A DNA stretch of 64,000 nt from Streptomyces europaeiscabiei (GTDB lineage Bacteria > Actinomycetota > Actinomycetes > Streptomycetales > Streptomycetaceae): NCBI RefSeq assembly GCF_036346855.1, contig NZ_CP107841.1, positions 8,684,001-8,748,000 on the forward strand, read 5' to 3'. The notes under the pieces were generated by a model. It was not told the DNA's origin. It did no database searches and saw only the letters and a program-made list of their open reading frames with translations. Positions 8,901 through 21,555 of this stretch are shown here, piece after piece. Made by a program: the position numbers and the translations under genes. Each line of letters begins with the position of its first letter. Position 1 is the stretch's first letter.

Positions 8901-9920
8901 ATGGGCATGGCAGCGGATCCGGCGCGTCGGCAGCCCACGCTCGACGCCGTGGCCGAACTCGCCGGAGTCTCCCGGTCCGTGGCCTCCCGCGTCCTCAACA
9001 ACGCACCGCACGTCAGCCGTTCGAAACGCGAGGCGGTCGAGCGGGCCGTCCGGCAACTCGACTACGTACCCAATCCGAGCGCCCGCGCCCTGGTCACCCG
9101 GCAGACGCGAGCGGCCGCCCTGGTCATCTCCGGAGAGGAACCGTCGATCTTCGCGGATCCGTTCTTCGCCCAGGTGATCGTGGGGGCCTCGGCCGCGCTG
9201 GAGGAGGCCGACCTGCATCTGATGCTGTGCCTGGCCGCTTCCGACCGGGGCCGTGAGCGAGTGGCGGAACTGCTCCGCTGCAAGGGCGCCGACGGCGTCA
9301 TGATGATGGCGCTGCGGGAGGACGATCCACTGGCCCGGACGGCCGAGGAGGCGGACCTGCCCGTGGTGTTCGGCGGACGCCCGGTCGGATCCGTTCCCCG
9401 CTGGTACGTGGACGTCGACAACACCGGCGGAGCCCGCGAGGGGACCGAGTATCTGCTCTCACGCGGCAGGACTCGGGTCGCCGCGCTCTGCGGGCGTCTG
9501 GACACCGAGGCGGGGCGTGCCCGGTATCGCGGCTACCGGGACGCCATGCTGGCGGCCGGGCTCGATCCGTTTCCGCCGCGGGAGGGGGACTTCACCGAGT
9601 CCGGCGGCGCCGCGGTCATGGCCGCGCTGCTGGCCGAACACCCTGATCTGGACGGGGTGTTCGCCGCCAGCGACAACATGGGGGCGGGGGCGCTGCGCAC
9701 CTTGCGTCGGGCGGGACGGTCGGTCCCCGCGGACGTCGCCGTGGTCGGTTTCGACGACCTGGCGGTGGCCCGGATCGCCGATCCGCCGCTCACCACCGTC
9801 CACCAGCCCATCACGGCCCTCGGACGGGAGATGGCGCGCATGCTCGTCGCACTCATCGACGGTCAGGACCCCACCCCGCTGATCCTGCCCACCCGCCTGG
9901 TCGTCCGTTCCAGCACCTGA
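8901..9920 (+). CDS. LacI-family regulator, CebR-like
   Basis: 339 residues. An N-terminal LacI helix-turn-helix (TLDAVAELAGVSRSVASRVLNN) and hinge (LDYVPNPSARALV) precede a periplasmic-binding-protein-like sensor (ALVISGEEPSIFADPFF, VVFGGRPVG, DGVFAASDNMGAGALR, VAVVGFDDL). Such proteins bind palindromic operators as dimers and release them on binding a sugar. The ATG at 8901 follows a purine-rich GGGGGAAGAGG. It is divergent from the GH6 cellulase and surrounded by CebR-type boxes, so I infer repression of the cellulase and of itself, relieved by cellobiose or a related oligosaccharide. No cebEFG transporter or bglC is nearby, so it may be a CebR paralogue with a local regulon. Confidence 0.85.
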   Translation: MGMAADPARRQPTLDAVAELAGVSRSVASRVLNNAPHVSRSKREAVERAVRQLDYVPNPSARALVTRQTRAAALVISGEEPSIFADPFFAQVIVGASAALEEADLHLMLCLAASDRGRERVAELLRCKGADGVMMMALREDDPLARTAEEADLPVVFGGRPVGSVPRWYVDVDNTGGAREGTEYLLSRGRTRVAALCGRLDTEAGRARYRGYRDAMLAAGLDPFPPREGDFTESGGAAVMAALLAEHPDLDGVFAASDNMGAGALRTLRRAGRSVPADVAVVGFDDLAVARIADPPLTTVHQPITALGREMARMLVALIDGQDPTPLILPTRLVVRSST

Positions 9921-13803: not shown

Positions 13804-14616
13804 TCAGCTGGTGACGAGTTCGGCGGTCCGGCGCTCGGCGGGGGCCACCACGGCCATGGTCACCGTCTCGTTCGCGGTCGCCGTGGCCGTCGGCACGTTC
13901 CGGCCCTCCCGGTTGCGGAACAGCCAGGCGATGTCCCGCCCGAACGACCAGAGCAGCGAGCCCAGCGCCAGCGCGACCAGGCCGAAGCCGGCCGCGTACG
14001 GGAGCAGGCCGGAGGCGGCGACCAGCAGGAAGACGCCCTGGATCGCGGCGACCGTCTTGCGGGCCATGCTGTGCGGGAGGGCGCCGTTCAGCCACGGCAT
14101 GACCTTGGCGGCGGCGACGAAGACGTACCGCATGAGACCGATCAGCAGCACCCACGGGCCCATCGACATGGAGACGTAGACGCTCAGCACCAGGATCAGG
14201 AACGCGTCGACCTCCATGTCGAAGCGGGCGCCCAGCGCGGTCGAGGTGTTCGTACGCCGGGCCACCTTGCCGTCGACGCCGTCGAGGATCAGGGCCACGG
14301 CGGTCAGGCCGACGAAGAGCGAGACGGGCGGCGAGCTCTGGAACGAGTCGGCGACCAGGGCGGTGACGGCGCCGACGAGTATCGCCCGCCCGAGGGTGAC
14401 GCGGTTGGCGGGGCCGAACGTGCGGGTCCGGGTGCGCAGCAGGGCACGGTTGAGGACGGCCCAGGTGGCGAGCCCGAAGGCCAGCCCGGTCAGCCAGCCC
14501 GCCGGGCCCAGTCCGATCGCCGTGCCCAGGAAGGCGAGGAGCAGCACCTGGGCGCCCGCGCCCACGGTCGTCTCCGAGAGCAACAGCCGGCCGTCGTATG
14601 TGTTGATCAGGGCCAC
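13804..14616 (-). CDS. CDP-alcohol phosphatidyltransferase family membrane protein
   Basis: 270 residues, with about six hydrophobic segments. The family signature is complete: LDGVDGKVARR followed by GARFDMEVD, giving the DGxxAR...GxxxDxxxD metal and CDP-alcohol site near residues 112-140. These enzymes join a CDP-activated alcohol (for example CDP-diacylglycerol) to an acceptor alcohol (inositol, glycerol phosphate or another) in the membrane. Start is GTG 14616, preceded by GGAAGG. It is divergent from the MDR dehydrogenase that opens the pterin-like cluster, with 106 bp between, and probably belongs to that cluster, making a lipid or head group for its product. The acceptor cannot be read from sequence. 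Confidence 0.85.
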   Translation of the reverse strand: MALINTYDGRLLLSETTVGAGAQVLLLAFLGTAIGLGPAGWLTGLAFGLATWAVLNRALLRTRTRTFGPANRVTLGRAILVGAVTALVADSFQSSPPVSLFVGLTAVALILDGVDGKVARRTNTSTALGARFDMEVDAFLILVLSVYVSMSMGPWVLLIGLMRYVFVAAAKVMPWLNGALPHSMARKTVAAIQGVFLLVAASGLLPYAAGFGLVALALGSLLWSFGRDIAWLFRNREGRNVPTATATANETVTMAVVAPAERRTAELVTS

Positions 14617-14722
14617 CGCATACCTTCCGAACGTGTGACAAGTGGATCATCGCCGCGTACCGTGTCCGCGACTTCCACCGCTGCGTACGTGGCGAACCGC
14701 TCGACCGTTCACGGAGACGCAC

Positions 14723-15703
14723 ATGAAACCGACAGCCGAGGCCTTCTGGCTACGCTCCCCGGGGCAGGGTGAGATCCGCGAGGAGCCCCTCGCCGAACCC
14801 GGCGAGAACGAGGTGCTCGTCCGTGCGCTGTACTCAGGAGTCAGCCGGGGCACCGAGACGCTCGTGTTCCGCGGCCAGGTGCCCGAGAACCAGCACGCGA
14901 CCATGCGCGCGCCCTTCCAGGAGGGCGAGTTCCCCGCTCCCGTGAAGTACGGCTATCTCAGCGTCGGGCGGGTGGAAGAGGGGCCGGACGCACTGGTCGG
15001 CAGGACCGTCTTCTGCCTGTATCCGCACCAGAGCCGCTACGTCGTTCCCGTGAGCGCCGTCACCGTCGTGCCGGAGTCCGTGCCCGCCGCGCGGGCCGTC
15101 CTCGCCGGGACCGTGGAGACGGCCGTCAACGCCCTGTGGGACGCGGCCCCCCTCGTCGGGGACCGGATCGCCGTCGTGGGCGGCGGCATGGTCGGCTGCT
15201 CGGTCGCCGCGCTGCTCGCCCGCTACCCGGGCGTGCGGGTCCAGCTCGTCGACGCCGACCCGGCGCGCGCCGACATCGCCCGCGCGCTCGGCGTCGACTT
15301 CGCGCTGCCCGGGGACGCGCTGGGCGAATGCGACCTCGTCGTGCACGCCAGCGCGAACGAACACGGGCTCGTACGCTCCCTGGAACTTCTCGCCGCCGAG
15401 GGCACGGTCATCGAACTGAGCTGGTACGGCGACCGCCGGATCGCCCTGCCGCTCGGCGAGGCCTTCCACTCGCGCCGGCTCACCATCCGCAGCAGCCAGG
15501 TCGGAACCGTCTCCCCGGCCGGACGCGTCGGACGTACGTACGCGGACCGGCTGGGGCTCGCCCTCGAACTCCTCGCCGACGCCCGCTTCGACGCGCTGGT
15601 CACCGGAGAGTGCGCCTTCGACGAGCTCCCGGACGTCATGCCGAAGCTGGCGAGCGGAGAGCTGCCGGGGATGTGCCATCGGGTCCGCTACGACGCCGAG
15701 TGA
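14723..15703 (+). CDS. MDR zinc-type dehydrogenase of the pterin-like cluster
   Basis: 326 residues, shorter than typical alcohol dehydrogenases (about 350). GroES-like N-terminal domain with ALYSGVSRGTET and a Rossmann domain with IAVVGGGMVGCSVAALLA. The catalytic zinc Cys of classical alcohol dehydrogenases (GICGSD) is replaced by YSGVSRGTE, a feature of the BchC-like and related MDR subfamily, so it may be zinc-independent. It would oxidise or reduce a carbonyl with NAD(P). ATG at 14723. First gene of the plus-strand series running through 20206, though a 168-bp gap precedes the next gene. A side-chain reductase role on a pterin-like product, as sepiapterin reductase plays in biopterin synthesis, is only speculation. 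Confidence 0.75.
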   Translation: MKPTAEAFWLRSPGQGEIREEPLAEPGENEVLVRALYSGVSRGTETLVFRGQVPENQHATMRAPFQEGEFPAPVKYGYLSVGRVEEGPDALVGRTVFCLYPHQSRYVVPVSAVTVVPESVPAARAVLAGTVETAVNALWDAAPLVGDRIAVVGGGMVGCSVAALLARYPGVRVQLVDADPARADIARALGVDFALPGDALGECDLVVHASANEHGLVRSLELLAAEGTVIELSWYGDRRIALPLGEAFHSRRLTIRSSQVGTVSPAGRVGRTYADRLGLALELLADARFDALVTGECAFDELPDVMPKLASGELPGMCHRVRYDAE

Positions 15704-15871
15704 GCCAGAGGTCGAGTGTTCCGGGTCACCCCACCCGCCCCTGAACTGCCCGAACGGAACATTGACCTCCAAAGAAACCGCAAAACTCGGCTGAACAACG
15801 GGTAGGGAGCAGCCGTACTACACGGCATGCCCCGGCCCGGGGGCAGACGTACCGCACTGGAGGGTCGTCCG
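15704..15871 (+). promoter_or_regulatory. Intergenic region with probable promoter of the PTPS operon
   Basis: 168 bp without a gene. The centre (15756-15795) is unusually AT-rich for this window and holds GGAAC and TTGACC within ten bases, a plausible -35 region; no clear -10 follows. The ribosome binding site GGAGGG at 15859-15864 lies seven bases before the TTG start of the next gene and decides that start. Confidence 0.4.
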
Positions 15872-16270
15872 TTGTTCAGCATCACCGTCCGCGATCACAT
15901 CATGATCGCCCACAGCTTCCGCGGGGAGGTCTTCGGACCCGCGCAGCGCCTCCACGGCGCCACGTTCCTCGTGGACGCCACCTTCCGACGCGCCGAACTG
16001 GACGACGACAACATCGTCGTAGACATCGGGCTGGCCACGCAGGAGCTCGGGGCCGTGGTGAGCGAGTTGAACTATCGCAACCTCGACAACGAGCCCGCCT
16101 TCGCCCACACGAACACCTCCACGGAGTTCCTGGCCAAGGTGATCGCCGACCGCCTCGCCGAGCGGATCCACAAGGGTGCCCTGGGGGAGAACGCCAAGGG
16201 CATCGCGGGAATCACGGTCACCCTGCACGAGTCGCACATCGCCTGGGCGAGTTACGAGCGTGCTCTGTGA
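15872..16270 (+). CDS. 6-pyruvoyltetrahydropterin synthase (PTPS/QueD) homologue, atypical zinc site
   Basis: 132 residues, the normal length of the PTPS/QueD fold. Recognisable elements: MIAHSF (His14), RLHGATF (His28), VVDIGLA (the conserved Asp after the second strand), [10 protein letters not shown] (NPTxExLA motif) and [11 protein letters not shown] near the C-terminus (conserved Glu120). Family members bind zinc through three His, the second pair as HGH; here the third ligand is Ala30 (HGA). The catalytic Cys usually found between the His motifs is also missing. So it is a divergent member that probably does not run the canonical PTPS reaction. Start TTG 15872 is set by GGAGGG. Its stop overlaps the glycosyltransferase start by four bases (GTGA), so the two are translationally coupled. 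Confidence 0.85.
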
Positions 16271-17490
16271 CCGACGTGACCATCGACCGGGCGGCCGTCG
16301 GCACCACCGCCCAGGCAGGCGGGGGAGAGCAGTTGAGGCTCGGCTATGTGCCCGTGCAGAACGCGGCGCTGAAGAACGCGGCCATCGTCCCCATGTCGCT
16401 GCGTTCCCTGCACTTCGTGATGCCGGGTGGCGTGGACGACCTGGCCCGGCCCAGCGGCGGCAACGCCTACGACCGCCGGATCTGCCTGGATCTGCCCGGC
16501 TTCGGCTGGCAGGTCCACAAGCACGCCATCGACGGCGGCTGGCCCAGCCCGTCCGAGACGGCGCGCGCCGAACTCGCCCGTACGCTGAGTGAATTCCCCG
16601 ACGGCACGGTCGTCCTCCTCGACGGCCTGGTCGCCTGCGGAGTCCCGGAGATCATCCTCCCCGAGGCCGAGCGCCTCTGCCTGGCCGTGCTGGTGCATCT
16701 GCCGCTCGGCGACGAGACGGGCCTGGAACCCGACGTCGCCGCCGAACTCGACGCCAAGGAGCGGGCGACCCTGCGGGGCGTGTCCGCCGTGATCGCGACC
16801 AGCGAATGGGCCGTCCGCAGACTCGTGTCACACCACGGGCTCGCCCCCGAGCGCGTTCACGTCGCCGCCCCCGGCGCCGACATCGCGCCCCTCGCCTCCG
16901 GCACCGACGGTGTCTCCCGGCTGCTGTGCGTGGCCGCGGTCACCCCGCGCAAGGGGCAGCACCGGCTGGTGGAGGCCCTCGCGACCGTCACCGAACTGCG
17001 CTGGAGCTGTGTGCTGGTGGGCAGCCTCGACCAGGAGCCCGAGTACGTCGACCACATCCGCACGCTGATCGCGAAGTTCGGCCTGGAGGACCGGTTCCAC
17101 CTCGCCGGACCGCAGGCCGGCGCGGAACTCGGCGCCAGCTACGCCGCCGCCGACCTGATGGTCCTCACCTCCTACGCCGAGACGTACGGCATGGCGGTCA
17201 CCGAAGCCCTCGCGCGCGGAATCCCCGTCCTGGCCACGGACGTCGGCGGTCTCCCCGAGGCCGTCGGACGTGCCCCCGACGGCGGGGTCCCCGGCATCCT
17301 CGTCCCGCCGGAGAACCCCGCGGCCATCGCGGCGGAGCTGCGCGGCTGGTTCGGGGAGGCCGACGTACGGCGTCGGCTGAAGGCCGCGGCGCGCGGGCGA
17401 CGGGCCGCGCTGGACGGGTGGGCGACCACGGCCCGCAGCCTCGCCCATGTACTGGGCCGGCTGCGGCACGAACCTCGGAGGGCGGCATGA
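16267..17490 (+). CDS. GT4-type glycosyltransferase
   Basis: 407 residues with the GT-B fold of family 4: [20 protein letters not shown] opens the nucleotide-sugar domain, and [21 protein letters not shown] is the E-x7-E donor-binding motif, followed by GGLPEAV and GILVPPENP. It would transfer a hexose or similar sugar from an NDP donor with retention, in the cytoplasm. The acceptor is unknown. Start GTG 16267 overlaps the PTPS stop; its own stop overlaps the methyltransferase ATG. The placement makes the PTPS-cluster product or a lipid-linked intermediate the likely acceptor; pterin glycosides are known in some bacteria. Confidence 0.88.
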
Positions 17491-18452
17491 CCACTTCTGC
17501 CGATATGACCGCGTCCGCGGGTGGGCCCCTGTCCGTGGGTGCCACCGCCGCCGCGGGTGCGGCCGTTTCCGGTGCCGCGCTGAGCATGGCGGGACGCGGT
17601 GGTGACACACCGGCGCCCGAGGGACACCAGTACGCGCCGCAGTGGCTGGAGCTGCGCGAGAGCGCCGACGCCGACGCCCGTGCGGCGGATCTGCTGGACC
17701 CGCTGCGGATCCGTCTCGCGAACCTGCCCGGCCGGGCCACCGGGCTGACCGTCCACGACCTGGGCTGCGGCACCGGCTCGATGGGCCGCTGGCTCGCGCC
17801 CCGGCTGGACGGCGCCCAGCGGTGGGTCCTGCACGACCAGGACCCGAACCTGCTGCGGCTGGCCGTCGCGCGGGCGCCCCGTGCGGCCGCCGACGGCAGC
17901 CCCGTCACGGTCACCACGCGGCGCGGCGACATCGGGCGGCTGACGGCGGCTGACCTGGACGGCGCCTCGCTGGTCACCGCGTCCGCGCTGCTCGACGTCC
18001 TCACCCGCGAGGAGATCGAGGCGCTCGCCGCGGCCTGCGCGGGCGCGGGGGTCCCCGCCCTGCTGACCCTGTCGGTCGTGGGCCGCGTGGACGTCGTCCC
18101 CGCCCACCCCATGGACACCGAGATCGCCGAGGCGTTCAACGCCCACCAGCGTGCGAGCGATCTGCTCGGTCCGGACGCGATCACCACGGCCTGCGAGGCC
18201 TTCGCCCAGCAGGGCGCCACGGTCCGGGTCCACCCGAGTCCCTGGCAGCTCGACCGGCGGCACACCGCCCTCACCGAGGAGTGGCTGCGCGGCTGGGTCG
18301 GCGCCGCCTGCGAACAGCGCCCCGAACTCACCGAGCGCGCCGACGCCTACCTCCGCGACCGCCTCCGGGACAACGCGGCCGGCGAACTCCGCGTCGTCGT
18401 CCACCACAGCGACCTCCTGGCCCTGCCCCGGCCGACGGGCGGAGTCTCATGA
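17487..18452 (+). CDS. SAM-dependent class I methyltransferase
   Basis: 321 residues. After a 45-residue Ala/Ser/Gly-rich leader comes a Rossmann methyltransferase: motif I VHDLGCGTGSMGRWLA, motif II VLHDQDPNLLRLA, an acidic post-motif and TLSVVGRVDVVPAHPMD. The fold is clear, but the target atom cannot be read. Starts at ATG 17487 within the previous stop (ATGA) and ends overlapping the next start the same way, so it is tightly coupled in the PTPS, glycosyltransferase and membrane-protein series. Confidence 0.85.
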   Translation: MTTSADMTASAGGPLSVGATAAAGAAVSGAALSMAGRGGDTPAPEGHQYAPQWLELRESADADARAADLLDPLRIRLANLPGRATGLTVHDLGCGTGSMGRWLAPRLDGAQRWVLHDQDPNLLRLAVARAPRAAADGSPVTVTTRRGDIGRLTAADLDGASLVTASALLDVLTREEIEALAAACAGAGVPALLTLSVVGRVDVVPAHPMDTEIAEAFNAHQRASDLLGPDAITTACEAFAQQGATVRVHPSPWQLDRRHTALTEEWLRGWVGAACEQRPELTERADAYLRDRLRDNAAGELRVVVHHSDLLALPRPTGGVS

Positions 18453-20206
18453 CAGCGCCGGTGGAGGAGGCGGTCGAGGCCCACCCGCCGGCGACGGGGG
18501 ACCGTATACGCCTGCGCCCGCGCGGAGTCCGGGCCCGGGTGAGGGCCAGCACGTCCGGGGCGCCGGCGAGGATGCGCGCGCTCGGGCCCGGCACGGGGCC
18601 GCGTGAACTGCCGGCCACCGCGGCGGTACCGGGCACGGACCTGCGCGGGGCGGCCCCGGACGCGGGTTCCGAAAGAGGCTCGGCGGCGATGTCCGCTGCC
18701 ACGGCGGACGGCCGCACCGCGTCGCCGACGGTCGCCTCGGACATGGGCGCCGACTCATCCACCCCCGTCCTCGGTGCGACCTCGGTGTCGGTCACTGCCT
18801 CGCAGGCCGCTGCCGACTCGGCCACGCCGGTCGGCCCCACGGCCTCGACGGAGGGCGTCCCGGGCGGAAGTTCCGTCGAGCCGGTGTCCGTGGCGGGGCC
18901 TCGGACGGTCGTGGCGCACGGAGCGACGGAGCCGGCCGGTGGCCGGAGCCGGGACGAGGCCGGTGCGGCATCCTGCCGGGCGGCCGCGCAGACGACCGCG
19001 AGCGGTGTCCTGCCCGAGGCCCCCGCGGTGTCCGTCGCCACGCCGGACGTCACCTCGCCCCAGGCCCCCGCCGAGCCCCGCCCCACCGGCAGGTTCACCC
19101 GTGTCCTGCGCACCCACTTCGGCACACTCGCCGGAACGGTCATCCTCGCCGTCGTCTTCTGGCGGATGGGGACCGGCGTGTTCGTGGACGGGCTGCGGCG
19201 GATCGACGGCGCGACGCTGGCGGCGGCGGTCGGGATCGGCGTGTTCACCACGGTGTGCAGCGCGTGGCGCTGGTGCGCGGTGACCCGGGCGCTCGGGATC
19301 AGACTGCCGCTCGGGCCGGCCGTCGCGGACTACTACCGCGCGCTGTTCCTCAACGCGGCACTGCCCGGCGGTGTGCTCGGCGATGTGCACCGCGCGGTGC
19401 GGCACGGCCGGAGTTCCGGGGACATGGGCCGGGGCGTGCGGGCGGTCGTCATCGAGCGCACCGCGGGCCAGTTGGTGCTGGCAGCCGTGGGCGTAACGGT
19501 TTTGCTGGTGCTGCCGTCCCCGGTGCTGGAGCAGACCCGTCACGCGGCGGGTGTGACCGTGCTCGTCGCGCTGGGCGCGCTGGCGATCTGGGCGGCGCTC
19601 CGGATGGGCCGCAGGCCCGGCGCGGCCGCGGGCCGGGGCCGCCGGGTCCGGGCCGCCCTCACCGAGGCGCGCGGCGCGCTGCTGAACCGCGACAGCGGCC
19701 CCGCCGTGCTGGTCTCGTCGGTGGCGGTACTGGCCGGATACGTGGCGACGTTCCTGCTCGCCGCACGCGTCGCCGGGTCCGCCGCGACCCCGCTGGAGGT
19801 GCTGCCCCTGGCGCTGCTGGCCCTGATCGCGATGAGCCTGCCGCTCAACGTCGGCGGCTGGGGCCCCCGCGAGGGCGTCACCGCCTGGTCCTTCGGCGCC
19901 GCCGGTCTGGGCGCCTCCCAGGGGCTGACCGTGGCCGTCGTCTACGGTGTGCTCAGCTTCGCGGCCGCCCTGCCCGGGGCCCTCGTGCTCGTCGGACGCT
20001 GGTACGGCTCCCTGCGGGCCCGCCGTCAGCCGACGGACGAGGCGGGTGCCGACGGCGCCTCGGGCGGAACCGTTCCCGTGTCCCAGGCGTCCGAGGTGAC
20101 CAATGAGAAGTACGCCCCGAAGGATTCGACGAACCCTGCAAGCAGCTCCTTCCCCTTCGCGGCGGATGCCAGGGACGGACGGCCGATGACACCGGAATCG
20201 GTGTAG
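18449..20206 (+). CDS. UPF0104/LPG-synthase-type membrane protein with long disordered N-terminus
   Basis: 585 residues in three parts. Residues 1-210 are low-complexity (Ala, Thr, Ser, Pro, Val), probably disordered and cytoplasmic. About 215-535 form a seven- to eight-helix membrane domain of the lysylphosphatidylglycerol synthase transmembrane/UPF0104 (AglD-like) family: YYRALFLNAALPGGVLGDVHRA, VVIERTAGQL, and SLPLNVGGWGPREGVTAW, the most conserved block. There is no C-terminal aminoacyltransferase domain, so transport or flipping of a lipid-linked product is more likely than lysine transfer. The last 60 residues are hydrophilic and are encoded antisense to the creatininase gene. Start ATG 18449 overlaps the methyltransferase stop. 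Confidence 0.8.
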   Translation: MTAPVEEAVEAHPPATGDRIRLRPRGVRARVRASTSGAPARMRALGPGTGPRELPATAAVPGTDLRGAAPDAGSERGSAAMSAATADGRTASPTVASDMGADSSTPVLGATSVSVTASQAAADSATPVGPTASTEGVPGGSSVEPVSVAGPRTVVAHGATEPAGGRSRDEAGAASCRAAAQTTASGVLPEAPAVSVATPDVTSPQAPAEPRPTGRFTRVLRTHFGTLAGTVILAVVFWRMGTGVFVDGLRRIDGATLAAAVGIGVFTTVCSAWRWCAVTRALGIRLPLGPAVADYYRALFLNAALPGGVLGDVHRAVRHGRSSGDMGRGVRAVVIERTAGQLVLAAVGVTVLLVLPSPVLEQTRHAAGVTVLVALGALAIWAALRMGRRPGAAAGRGRRVRAALTEARGALLNRDSGPAVLVSSVAVLAGYVATFLLAARVAGSAATPLEVLPLALLALIAMSLPLNVGGWGPREGVTAWSFGAAGLGASQGLTVAVVYGVLSFAAALPGALVLVGRWYGSLRARRQPTDEAGADGASGGTVPVSQASEVTNEKYAPKDSTNPASSSFPFAADARDGRPMTPESV

Positions 20207-20817
20207 GCCGACATACCGAGGGAGAGGAGATGACGGCGGTCGTCGGCAAGGAAATCGGTGGTCTCGTGACCGGGCCGGACCAATTCGGGGTGGCAATGCA
20301 GAAGTATGGAGGTCTCTATTTCTCCCGCATGCATATCGCTGAGCAACGAGGTCTGTACGCCCGCCCGTTCGCGGGCGGATTCCCAGTCCTCCATCGCCGG
20401 GAAAAGCGCCATTCGATGTCCCGCCGCGGTGGATTCCTGGACGACATTGCCCAGAACATAATTCCCACCGTGACCGTTCACCACCACCAGAGCCTCGACG
20501 CCCGACCGGCGCAGGGACGCGGCGATGTCGCGGACCATCGCGTGCAGGGTCGTCGCGGAAATGCTGACGGTGCCCGGCCAGGCCGCGTGCTCGTGCGAGC
20601 AGGCGATGGTCACGGGCGGGAGGAGATGCACCGGGTACGCGGCGGCTATCTCCCGGGATATGGCGCAGGCGACGAGCGTGTCGGTGGCCAGCGGCAGATA
20701 CGGGCCGTGCTGCTCGTAGCTGCCGACGGGAAGCACCGCGACCTGTCGGCCGGCCTTCGCCCCCCGCGCGCGGACGTCCGCGGTGGTGTCCGTCGGTACA
20801 AGACTCGAACTGCTCAT
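20026..20817 (-). CDS. Creatininase-family amidohydrolase, possible FAPy deformylase
   Basis: 263 residues, full length. All metal-site motifs of the creatininase fold are present: GSYEQHGPYLPLATDT (Glu35, His37, Asp46), CSHEHAAWPGT, VNGHGGNY (His116) and DMHAGEIETS (Glu166/Glu168). The family hydrolyses cyclic or linear amides and includes archaeal ArfB, which removes the formyl group from the formamidopyrimidine nucleotide in riboflavin and F420 synthesis. Its divergent neighbour 78 bp away is a GTP cyclohydrolase II of the formamidopyrimidine-releasing type, so deformylation of that product is a good prediction. Its 3' end overlaps the convergent membrane-protein gene by 181 bp. The first half of the gene is noticeably less GC-rich than its neighbours. 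Confidence 0.85.
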   Translation of the reverse strand: MSSSSLVPTDTTADVRARGAKAGRQVAVLPVGSYEQHGPYLPLATDTLVACAISREIAAAYPVHLLPPVTIACSHEHAAWPGTVSISATTLHAMVRDIAASLRRSGVEALVVVNGHGGNYVLGNVVQESTAAGHRMALFPAMEDWESARERAGVQTSLLSDMHAGEIETSILLHCHPELVRPGHETTDFLADDRRHLLSLGMSAYTDSGVIGRPSLASAAKGKELLAGFVESFGAYFSLVTSDAWDTGTVPPEAPSAPASSVG

Positions 20818-20895
20818 CTTTTCAAGGCCTCTCGTCTCTGCTGATGCTCCGTCATTTTCGCATGACGTCAGGGCTTACCAGATTGGAATCAGATC

Positions 20896-21555
20896 ATGAC
20901 AGAAAATGTTGGTGTACTCGGCACGAATGCCCAGTCCTCCGGCGCCGTACGCGTGGTGAACGCCCCCCTGCCCACGACGTACGGCGACTTCGAGGCCGTA
21001 GGTTATCTCGACCAGGACCGCGGCGAGGAACAAGTGGCGTTGGTGTTCGGCGACATCAGCGGCGGTGAGGGAATTCTCATACGGCTGCACTCGGAGTGCC
21101 TGACCGGTGACGCGTTCGGTTCCCAGCACTGCGAATGCGGCGAGCAGCTCGACAGCGCGCTCCGGTCGATAGTCGCCGAGGGGCGCGGCGTTCTCGTCTA
21201 TCTGCGCGGCCACGAGGGCCGCGGCATCGGTCTGCTGGCCAAGCTCCAGGCGATGAAGCTCCAGGCGGAGGGGCTGGACACCGTCGAGGCGAACCTCGCC
21301 CTCGGGCTGCCGGTGGACGCCCGCGACTACCGGGTGGCGGCCGAGATGCTGCACGACCTCGGCGTACGGTCGGTCCGGCTGATGTCGAACAACCCGCGCA
21401 AGCGGGAGGCGCTGCTGCGCCACGGCATCGCGGTCTCCGAGCAGGTGCCGCTGTTGATCACGCCGTGCGAGGACAACATCACCTACCTGCGCACCAAGCG
21501 GGAGCGGCTCGACCACTACCTGCCGCACCTGGACGCGGTGGTCCACTCGTCCTGA
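20896..21555 (+). CDS. GTP cyclohydrolase II homologue with Met120 (FAPy-forming type)
   Basis: 219 residues. The GTP cyclohydrolase II core is intact: zinc cysteines in SECLTGDAFGSQHCECGEQL (Cys68, Cys79, Cys81), LRGHEGRGIGLLAK, NNPRKREAL and the VPLLITPCEDN ending. The active-site Tyr of true RibA proteins (IRAYALQ in E. coli) is replaced by Met120 (LQAMKLQ, codon 21253-21255). From memory of published work on S. coelicolor, the paralogue SCO6655 with Met at this exact position stops after ring opening and yields the formamidopyrimidine nucleotide. So this is probably not the housekeeping riboflavin enzyme. It starts at ATG 20896 and is divergent from the creatininase-family gene, its likely next step. 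Confidence 0.9.
   Translation: MTENVGVLGTNAQSSGAVRVVNAPLPTTYGDFEAVGYLDQDRGEEQVALVFGDISGGEGILIRLHSECLTGDAFGSQHCECGEQLDSALRSIVAEGRGVLVYLRGHEGRGIGLLAKLQAMKLQAEGLDTVEANLALGLPVDARDYRVAAEMLHDLGVRSVRLMSNNPRKREALLRHGIAVSEQVPLLITPCEDNITYLRTKRERLDHYLPHLDAVVHSS

Follow-up and report, generated by a model that had tools for sequence, protein, structure and literature searches.

Our analysis suggests that eight genes at positions 13804 to 21555 of a 64-kb window (C1:8684001-8748000) of the 10.95-Mb genome of Streptomyces europaeiscabiei probably form a branch of an old and widespread actinobacterial pathway that is fed by GTP, keeps the 2-amino-4-oxo-pyrimidine ring, is opened by two enzymes and continues with sugar, methyl and membrane steps. 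Here and below, the window is the whole stretch analyzed, and positions are its own unless a contig is given. In the proposed opening, a GTP cyclohydrolase II whose active-site Tyr is replaced by Met120 (20896..21555, + strand) would open GTP and leave the formyl group on, giving a formamidopyrimidine (FAPy) nucleotide. A creatininase-family amidohydrolase (20026..20817, - strand), the proposed FAPy-nucleotide deformylase, would then remove the formyl group to yield 2,5-diamino-6-ribosylamino-4(3H)-pyrimidinone 5'-phosphate (DARPP). Where other lineages have a Tyr-type GTP cyclohydrolase II, this one enzyme would carry out both steps, with no creatininase present. An earlier description of the window made from its letters alone (the sequence-only reading) had proposed that this pair converts GTP in two steps into the deformylated pyrimidine nucleotide. 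That proposal is now supported by the co-variation of the two genes, by a swap of gene lineages, and by the precedent of the enzyme BrbF as given in the accessible part of its description (PMC9478397).

The cyclohydrolase has the GTP cyclohydrolase II fold by its match to PF00925 (221.5 bits), and the zinc ligands Cys68, Cys79 and Cys81 are kept in it as in all 32 non-Tyr and all 44 Tyr sequences compared. In the alignment to E. coli RibA (2bz0), KLQAM of the window protein falls on KIRAY, which places Met120 at the active-site Tyr (Tyr105), as the sequence-only reading had held. We take SCO6655 of S. coelicolor to be a Met120, FAPy-forming cyclohydrolase II; its activity was reportedly described by Spoonamore in 2006, and the window enzyme agrees with it at this residue. 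The window genome holds four other cyclohydrolase matches, three of which (L001, L003 and L004) have the Tyr; the fourth is L005. L004 and L005 (G000:C1:140229 and C1:10614894) score the same, lie on opposite strands and are each some 140.2 kb away from one end of the contig (10,755,582 bases), a placement that probably reflects terminal inverted repeats.

Related loci were selected for holding the gene of the cluster's 6-pyruvoyl-tetrahydropterin synthase (PTPS) homologue, and long stretches were read for 57 of 66 PTPS places, the window included; nine were left out (G107, G089, G128, G048, G040, G086, G204, G219 and G198). Gene counts in the 57 loci are tblastn matches within 11.5 kb of PTPS, as the automatic gene caller missed many genes and its counts were not used. 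If a non-Tyr cyclohydrolase stops at the FAPy nucleotide, a deformylase is required in clusters that have it and dispensable in ordinary ones. Among the 40 loci with a cyclohydrolase, 28 have a non-Tyr enzyme, and the creatininase accompanies all 28 (at up to 11.5 kb in 27, and at about 13.5 kb in the genome of L094), whereas the creatininase was found in the stretch of none of the 12 Tyr loci, and no close copy (E at most 1e-45) was found in those 12 genomes. One further locus, L083, has a creatininase and no cyclohydrolase in its stretch; a Leu-type cyclohydrolase lies 9 kb upstream. The L063 creatininase used in the comparisons was a wrong reading frame; the true copy, 68% identical, lies at C51:271025, 3 kb from PTPS, and leaves the count unchanged. 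Among the best 80 of 574 named loci, nearly all of them from Streptomyces, 73 have a cyclohydrolase, always of non-Tyr type (70 Met, 3 His), and the creatininase is present in 73 of 73. Two of 30 cyclohydrolases read in the 19 genomes that were searched for missing genes or as a check lack the Tyr, and these are in the genomes of L083 and L094. In 24 control genomes without the PTPS homologue, 28 of 30 cyclohydrolase matches have the Tyr by pattern and a 29th by eye.

Among the 76 cyclohydrolases placed in a tree, 32 are non-Tyr; they fall into two clades, each with 16 sequences and no Tyr member, so that two changes are needed, and a single origin is also plausible (55% of bootstrap trees). 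Three features favor function, and not descent alone, as the cause of the association. The non-Tyr residue varies (Met in 18, His in 7, Leu in 6 and Gln in 1) with no return to Tyr. At residue 80, which lies between zinc cysteines, 31 of 32 non-Tyr sequences have Glu and 43 of 44 Tyr sequences have Asp. Finally, the Tyr clusters use a different cyclohydrolase lineage, to which 10 of their 12 enzymes belong, L081 and L082 being unplaced in the tree. It looks as if one enzyme had been swapped against a pair. The one-enzyme and two-enzyme routes to the same pyrimidine seem to be interchangeable, although the independent events are few, one or two.

The window creatininase belongs to its family by a PF02633 match of 217.9 bits and by conserved ligand positions. 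E35, H37, D46, H116, E166 and E168, which we take to be the metal ligands, reach a conservation of at least 94% in 34 cluster copies and at least 90% in 12 sister copies, and the metal site is complete, as had been claimed. By sequence, the protein is not an ArfB (NF033501, 38.4 bits against a cut-off of 180). Its closest NCBIfam model is that of the peptidase MftE (TIGR03964), for which it also falls short of the cut-off (135.1 bits against 172). The cluster creatininases split from 12 other close copies (97/96, in a rough bootstrap that had not converged). These 12 comprise ten from genomes without PTPS and second copies from two PTPS-bearing genomes. In this sister clade (L251 7921-9847; L255-L265), mostly of genomes without the cluster, a match to an XRE-type regulator adjoins the creatininase gene in 11 of 12 cases. 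Of 44 genomes without PTPS, 11 have a close creatininase; these were considered as counter-examples and rejected as such, since the ten that were fetched fall in the sister clade (G166 was left out). For BrbF of Sinorhizobium and relatives, a bacterial member of the creatininase family, the accessible text reports measured deformylation of the same FAPy nucleotide (PMC9478397). There BrbF serves riboflavin and its FAPy-forming partner is not known (PMC9478397); the two proteins are likened here by family and predicted reaction.

The other genes of the cluster encode, besides PTPS, a medium-chain dehydrogenase/reductase (MDR), a GT4 glycosyltransferase, a methyltransferase, a flippase-like membrane protein and a CDP-alcohol phosphotransferase. 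The PTPS gene occurs in 27 of 150 genomes of the family and in 58 of 394 genomes of the class (one of them a weak match), spread over 25 of 137 genera. The MDR gene adjoins it in 27 of the 27 family genomes that hold it, the window included, which exceeds chance. Across the 57 loci, MDR was found in 57, GT4 in 56, the flippase-like gene in 50, the CDP-alcohol phosphotransferase in 48, the methyltransferase in 46, cyclohydrolase II in 40, the creatininase in 28, a RibD_C reductase in 26 and an LtaS-like membrane protein in 17; MDR and GT4 accompany PTPS together in 56. The sequence-only reading had staked its case on these genes keeping company in relatives, and they do stay together. In L065, L071 and L096, a major facilitator superfamily transporter and a second methyltransferase-like gene lie between the GT4 and methyltransferase genes.

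A separate actinobacterial family, f58, has RibD_C, MDR, PTPS and GT4 with its own methyltransferase in 8 of 8 fetched loci (of 24 matches). Its PTPS keeps HGH and has FGPA in place of the Cys motif, and a Tyr cyclohydrolase is also present in one of the eight loci. A gene named by eye as FolB (dihydroneopterin aldolase) lies divergently beside RibD_C in all eight (L197-L204), which is a hint at pterin chemistry. These loci come from a PTPS search whose 55 matching genomes out of 396 are not a count of the PTPS-IV subfamily described below: 9 had already been identified, and 15 others were fetched. The eight f58 loci and L205 show the core, and the PTPS of the remaining L206-L211 has an ordinary Cys-HGH motif.

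In many relatives, though not inside the window cluster, the third step would be reduction of the pyrimidine to its ribityl form by a RibD_C reductase. The gene is present in 12 of 12 Tyr clusters, 6 of 28 non-Tyr clusters and 8 of 17 loci without a cyclohydrolase in the stretch; matches below about 205 bits to the fused cyclohydrolase II-RibD_C query of L081 lie on the cyclohydrolase and were excluded from these counts. In L081 itself (near 9313, - strand), the Tyr-type GTP cyclohydrolase II is fused to RibD_C and lies beside MDR, PTPS and GT4. Among NCBIfam models, the L072 reductase scores highest with TIGR01508 (128 bits, below the cut-off of 186), which describes the archaeal 2,5-diamino-6-ribosylamino-pyrimidinone phosphate reductase; of solved structures, 5xux ("conserved protein") and 6p8c (DARPP reductase) are closest to it. 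The L038 reductase scores 92 bits with TIGR01508 and better with ribD_Cterm (119 bits, cut-off 150). Reductases of the DARPP type act before deamination, in keeping with the finding that none of the eight proteins is a deaminase. Across the relatives, the RibD_C reductases are of at least two kinds. We had considered that the reductase step was lost from the window genome, where the best match was 32% identical, and rejected this, since the query was of the Streptomycetaceae type only and the other type finds a domain 57% identical to the L040 RibD_C over 226 residues, outside the cluster (about C1:4961544-4962701). At that place (L297 6984-9702; G000:C1:4959983-4962701), the Tyr-type cyclohydrolase II L003 and a MarR-like gene diverge from a gene that fuses reductase and deaminase in reversed domain order; its deaminase-like part was identified by eye. 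L003 and the fusion look like a riboflavin module, and the pair could also serve the cluster pathway in trans.

Several observations weigh against a GTP-fed pathway with a two-enzyme opening. The fetched stretch of 17 of the 57 loci holds no cyclohydrolase at all. Because the non-Tyr sequences need only one or two origins, the 28 loci are not 28 independent observations; the clean split is partly one of shared descent, which the Fisher p-values for the Tyr/creatininase split ignore. The rule that non-Tyr enzymes occur only with the cluster has an exception in G476, a genome without the cluster that has a Leu cyclohydrolase of a different kind. A tandem pair of distant GTP cyclohydrolase II-like genes, one Tyr and one Leu, is found there (L281/L282, G476:C1:6833707-6835000). 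No creatininase residue separates the cluster copies from the sister clade beside the XRE-type regulator, so that the substrate is not proven by sequence alone. According to the accessible text, two distant BrbF homologues did not complement the loss of BrbF (PMC9478397), indicating that not every creatininase-family protein has the deformylase role. As for the reductase, RibD_C is not one group: three members from non-Tyr clusters of Streptomycetaceae share 25-34% identity with 15 others, and three further Streptomycetaceae non-Tyr loci match that same kind best. The window cluster itself has none, and the 57% identical domain is part of a deaminase fusion next to a Tyr cyclohydrolase, in what looks like a riboflavin module. 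The finding of that domain helps the reductase step; the existence of two RibD_C groups weakens it.

The PTPS homologue (15872..16270, + strand; PF01242, 73.9 bits) is the orthologue of SCO6650 of S. coelicolor, whose structure 3d7j was the sole PDB match (E=6e-76), and is identical to the Streptomyces stelliscabiei copy over 122 compared residues. Its start is probably the TTG at 15872, which is preceded by GGAGG and aligns with the Met of the 3d7j chain; ATG codons at 15827 and 15902 are alternatives. FGPAQ and HGA stand where QueD-type proteins have their catalytic Cys and their HGH zinc motif, and with no Cys and no HGH the protein is placed outside PTPS-I to III and QueD (31.8 bits with the QueD model, cut-off 89). 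One Glu close to the C-terminus (E110 of sequence A1) is invariant in 19 aligned sequences and is presumably the pterin anchor. In the accessible parts of a network study, FGPAQ is the signature of the PTPS-IV subfamily, with a neighborhood of PF00925 and RibD_C (PMC5445326), and a review mentions unpublished work on a role of PTPS-IV in archaeal F420 synthesis (PMC5041015). The window cluster resembles the subfamily as described there in both signature and neighborhood (PMC5445326, PMC5041015): the window holds FGPAQ and PF00925, and the RibD_C neighbor is found only in relatives. In the accessible text of these sources PF00925 is labelled GTP cyclohydrolase I/FolE2; it is in fact GTP cyclohydrolase II. 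A word-stem search for "creatinin" gave no mention in the main texts of PMC5445326 and PMC5041015. We found no paper on the product of the cluster or on its full pathway in the open-licence literature, which leaves subscription papers uncovered, and in the accessible S. coelicolor literature found, SCO6655 and SCO6652 have one table mention each. In Streptomyces tendae JCM 4610, one PTPS-IV gene (L186) has no other cluster gene within 20 kb, and the same strain has a full cluster at L141.

Reading frames and Pfam profiles confirmed all eight genes named in the sequence-only reading. Its account of the layout is also borne out by the coordinates, with four-base overlaps in the run from PTPS through GT4 and methyltransferase to flippase (16267-16270, 17487-17490 and 18449-18452) and a divergent gap of 78 bp between creatininase and cyclohydrolase (20818-20895). 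The creatininase and flippase-like frames overlap tail to tail by 181 bp (20026-20206), and both tails lie outside the Pfam domains. The MDR dehydrogenase (14723..15703, + strand) is BchC-like: its best NCBIfam model is BchC (49.5 bits, cut-off 291), the match to ADH_zinc_N has 25.4 bits (cut-off 31.8), and it has GVSRGTE at the position where zinc-type relatives have what we take to be a catalytic Cys. The GT4-family glycosyltransferase (16267..17490, + strand) matches PF00534 with 102 bits and the MshA model with 89 bits (cut-off 462), and the class I methyltransferase (17487..18452, + strand) matches PF13649 with 35 bits. The flippase-like membrane protein (18449..20206, + strand) carries an LPG_synthase_TM domain (PF03706, 109 bits) over residues 228-508 and has a long N-terminal part beyond it. 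In Pfam and NCBIfam scans, no deaminase, lumazine synthase or riboflavin synthase (RibH/RibE) was found among the eight proteins, and the cluster is therefore not a riboflavin operon. The same scans gave no QueE or QueC, as a queuosine/7-deazapurine cluster would have, and no FO synthase or later F420 genes, at which no search was specifically aimed.

At the other end of the cluster, the CDP-alcohol phosphotransferase gene (13804..14616, - strand; PF01066, 57 bits) is divergent from the MDR gene by 106 bp, and its product has the motif D..DG..AR(8)G(3)D(3)D, read by eye; the motif is found in 48 of the 57 loci. In 9 of 16 relatives compared, this enzyme is fused to the LtaS-like membrane protein (L068 12388-14646, - strand; L073, L074, L076, L078, L090, L091, L097 and L098), and one fused member that was scanned showed no further Pfam match. 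The structure predicted for the unfused L072 protein (mean pLDDT 82.9) matches LtaP/LtaS first, with EptA and GacH below (4uop, 4uor, 5fgn and 6dgm; E 1e-10 to 1e-7; TM by target 0.44-0.51). The LtaS-fold protein, present in 17 of the 57 loci, is not part of the window cluster; like the RibD_C genes found beside PTPS, it occurs in relatives only and so escaped the sequence-only reading. The predicted LtaS/EptA-like fold in relatives supports a membrane-linked product.

We infer all steps after DARPP. The zinc-less T-fold protein PTPS-IV and the BchC-like dehydrogenase would act on the ring or the side chain, possibly closing a pterin; the GT4 enzyme would add a sugar and the methyltransferase a methyl group; and the CDP-alcohol phosphotransferase, the flippase-like protein and, in relatives, the LtaS/EptA-like protein would place the product in or on the membrane. 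As a guess, RibD_C and the BchC-like MDR might jointly shift the oxidized position of the sugar from C1' to C2', and the T-fold protein would then close the pterin ring. In its fullest form, this scheme has the cluster make an undescribed membrane-linked glycoside bearing a pterin or diaminopyrimidine and kept across Actinomycetota, with the chemistry of GTP cyclohydrolase I split over cyclohydrolase II, creatininase, reductase plus BchC-like dehydrogenase (the oxidation C1' to C2') and T-fold ring closure. We regard that version as speculative and rather improbable. Taken as a whole, the earlier interpretation of the cluster is partly supported.

The membrane end of the pathway is open to another explanation. 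With the first two enzymes acting as proposed, the product could be a soluble, cofactor-like pterin or pyrimidine glycoside, and the membrane genes could export it or serve a neighboring function. The core of f58 is consistent with this, as the eight fetched loci have RibD_C-MDR-PTPS-GT4 and a methyltransferase and gave no match to the CDP-alcohol phosphotransferase or the flippase. However, the CDP-alcohol phosphotransferase and the flippase-like gene persist in 48 and 50 of the 57 loci through varied gene orders, and the fusion of the former to the LtaS-like protein in 9 of 16 family members also argues for a membrane role, so that we consider a soluble product possible but doubtful.

The creatininase, for its part, might be an amidohydrolase or peptidase that acts on a later intermediate and travels with the non-Tyr cyclohydrolase by common descent only. 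The proximity of the MftE peptidase model, the small number of origins and the lack of a cluster-specific residue would all fit. Against this, the creatininase is absent from 12 of 12 Tyr clusters, which keep most of the later genes (GT4 in 12, MDR in 12, flippase in 11, CDP-alcohol phosphotransferase in 10 and methyltransferase in 7), and a formamidase of the creatininase family has been published in BrbF, as far as its accessible description goes (PMC9478397); we consider a later role unlikely. Still less probable, and in our view very improbable, is that the cluster feeds riboflavin or F420 synthesis by another route, replacing the first rib steps under some condition. RibD_C and cyclohydrolase are indeed neighbors, the Tyr-type cluster cyclohydrolases share a clade with L003, which adjoins the reductase-deaminase fusion, and the accessible text of a review refers to the unpublished work on archaeal F420 (PMC5041015). 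But the eight proteins include no deaminase, RibH or RibE, the 24 genomes without PTPS-IV have Tyr-type cyclohydrolases and manage without the cluster, and sugar, methyl and phospholipid enzymes have no place in such a feeder.

The two-enzyme opening that we favor has a counterpart in archaeal riboflavin synthesis, in which ArfA, ArfB and ArfC form FAPy, deformylate it and reduce the product before deamination. The predicted reactions of the cluster are the same, with the reduction in relatives only; the ring opener differs, being GTP cyclohydrolase II in the cluster and GTP cyclohydrolase III in archaea, the creatininase is distant from ArfB (38 bits, as above), and the archaeal route feeds a different end product. 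The opening is probably a variant of the archaeal Arf-like split, standing at the head of a widespread pathway. Cyanopterin-type pterin glycosides are likewise made with a PTPS-type protein and a glycosyltransferase, as would be the case here, but start from GTP cyclohydrolase I.

The proposed pathway would give a common place to two orphan proteins of S. coelicolor, the cyclohydrolase that we take to form FAPy and the solved PTPS homologue SCO6650, orthologous to the window protein. The orphan FAPy would gain a likely partner enzyme and, in relatives, a likely next enzyme, and the pathway becomes testable. For BrbF of alphaproteobacteria, whose FAPy-forming partner is missing, a cyclohydrolase II without the active-site Tyr may also serve as a model of that partner. 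If the product is indeed a pterin-bearing envelope lipid, it would represent a new class of compounds.

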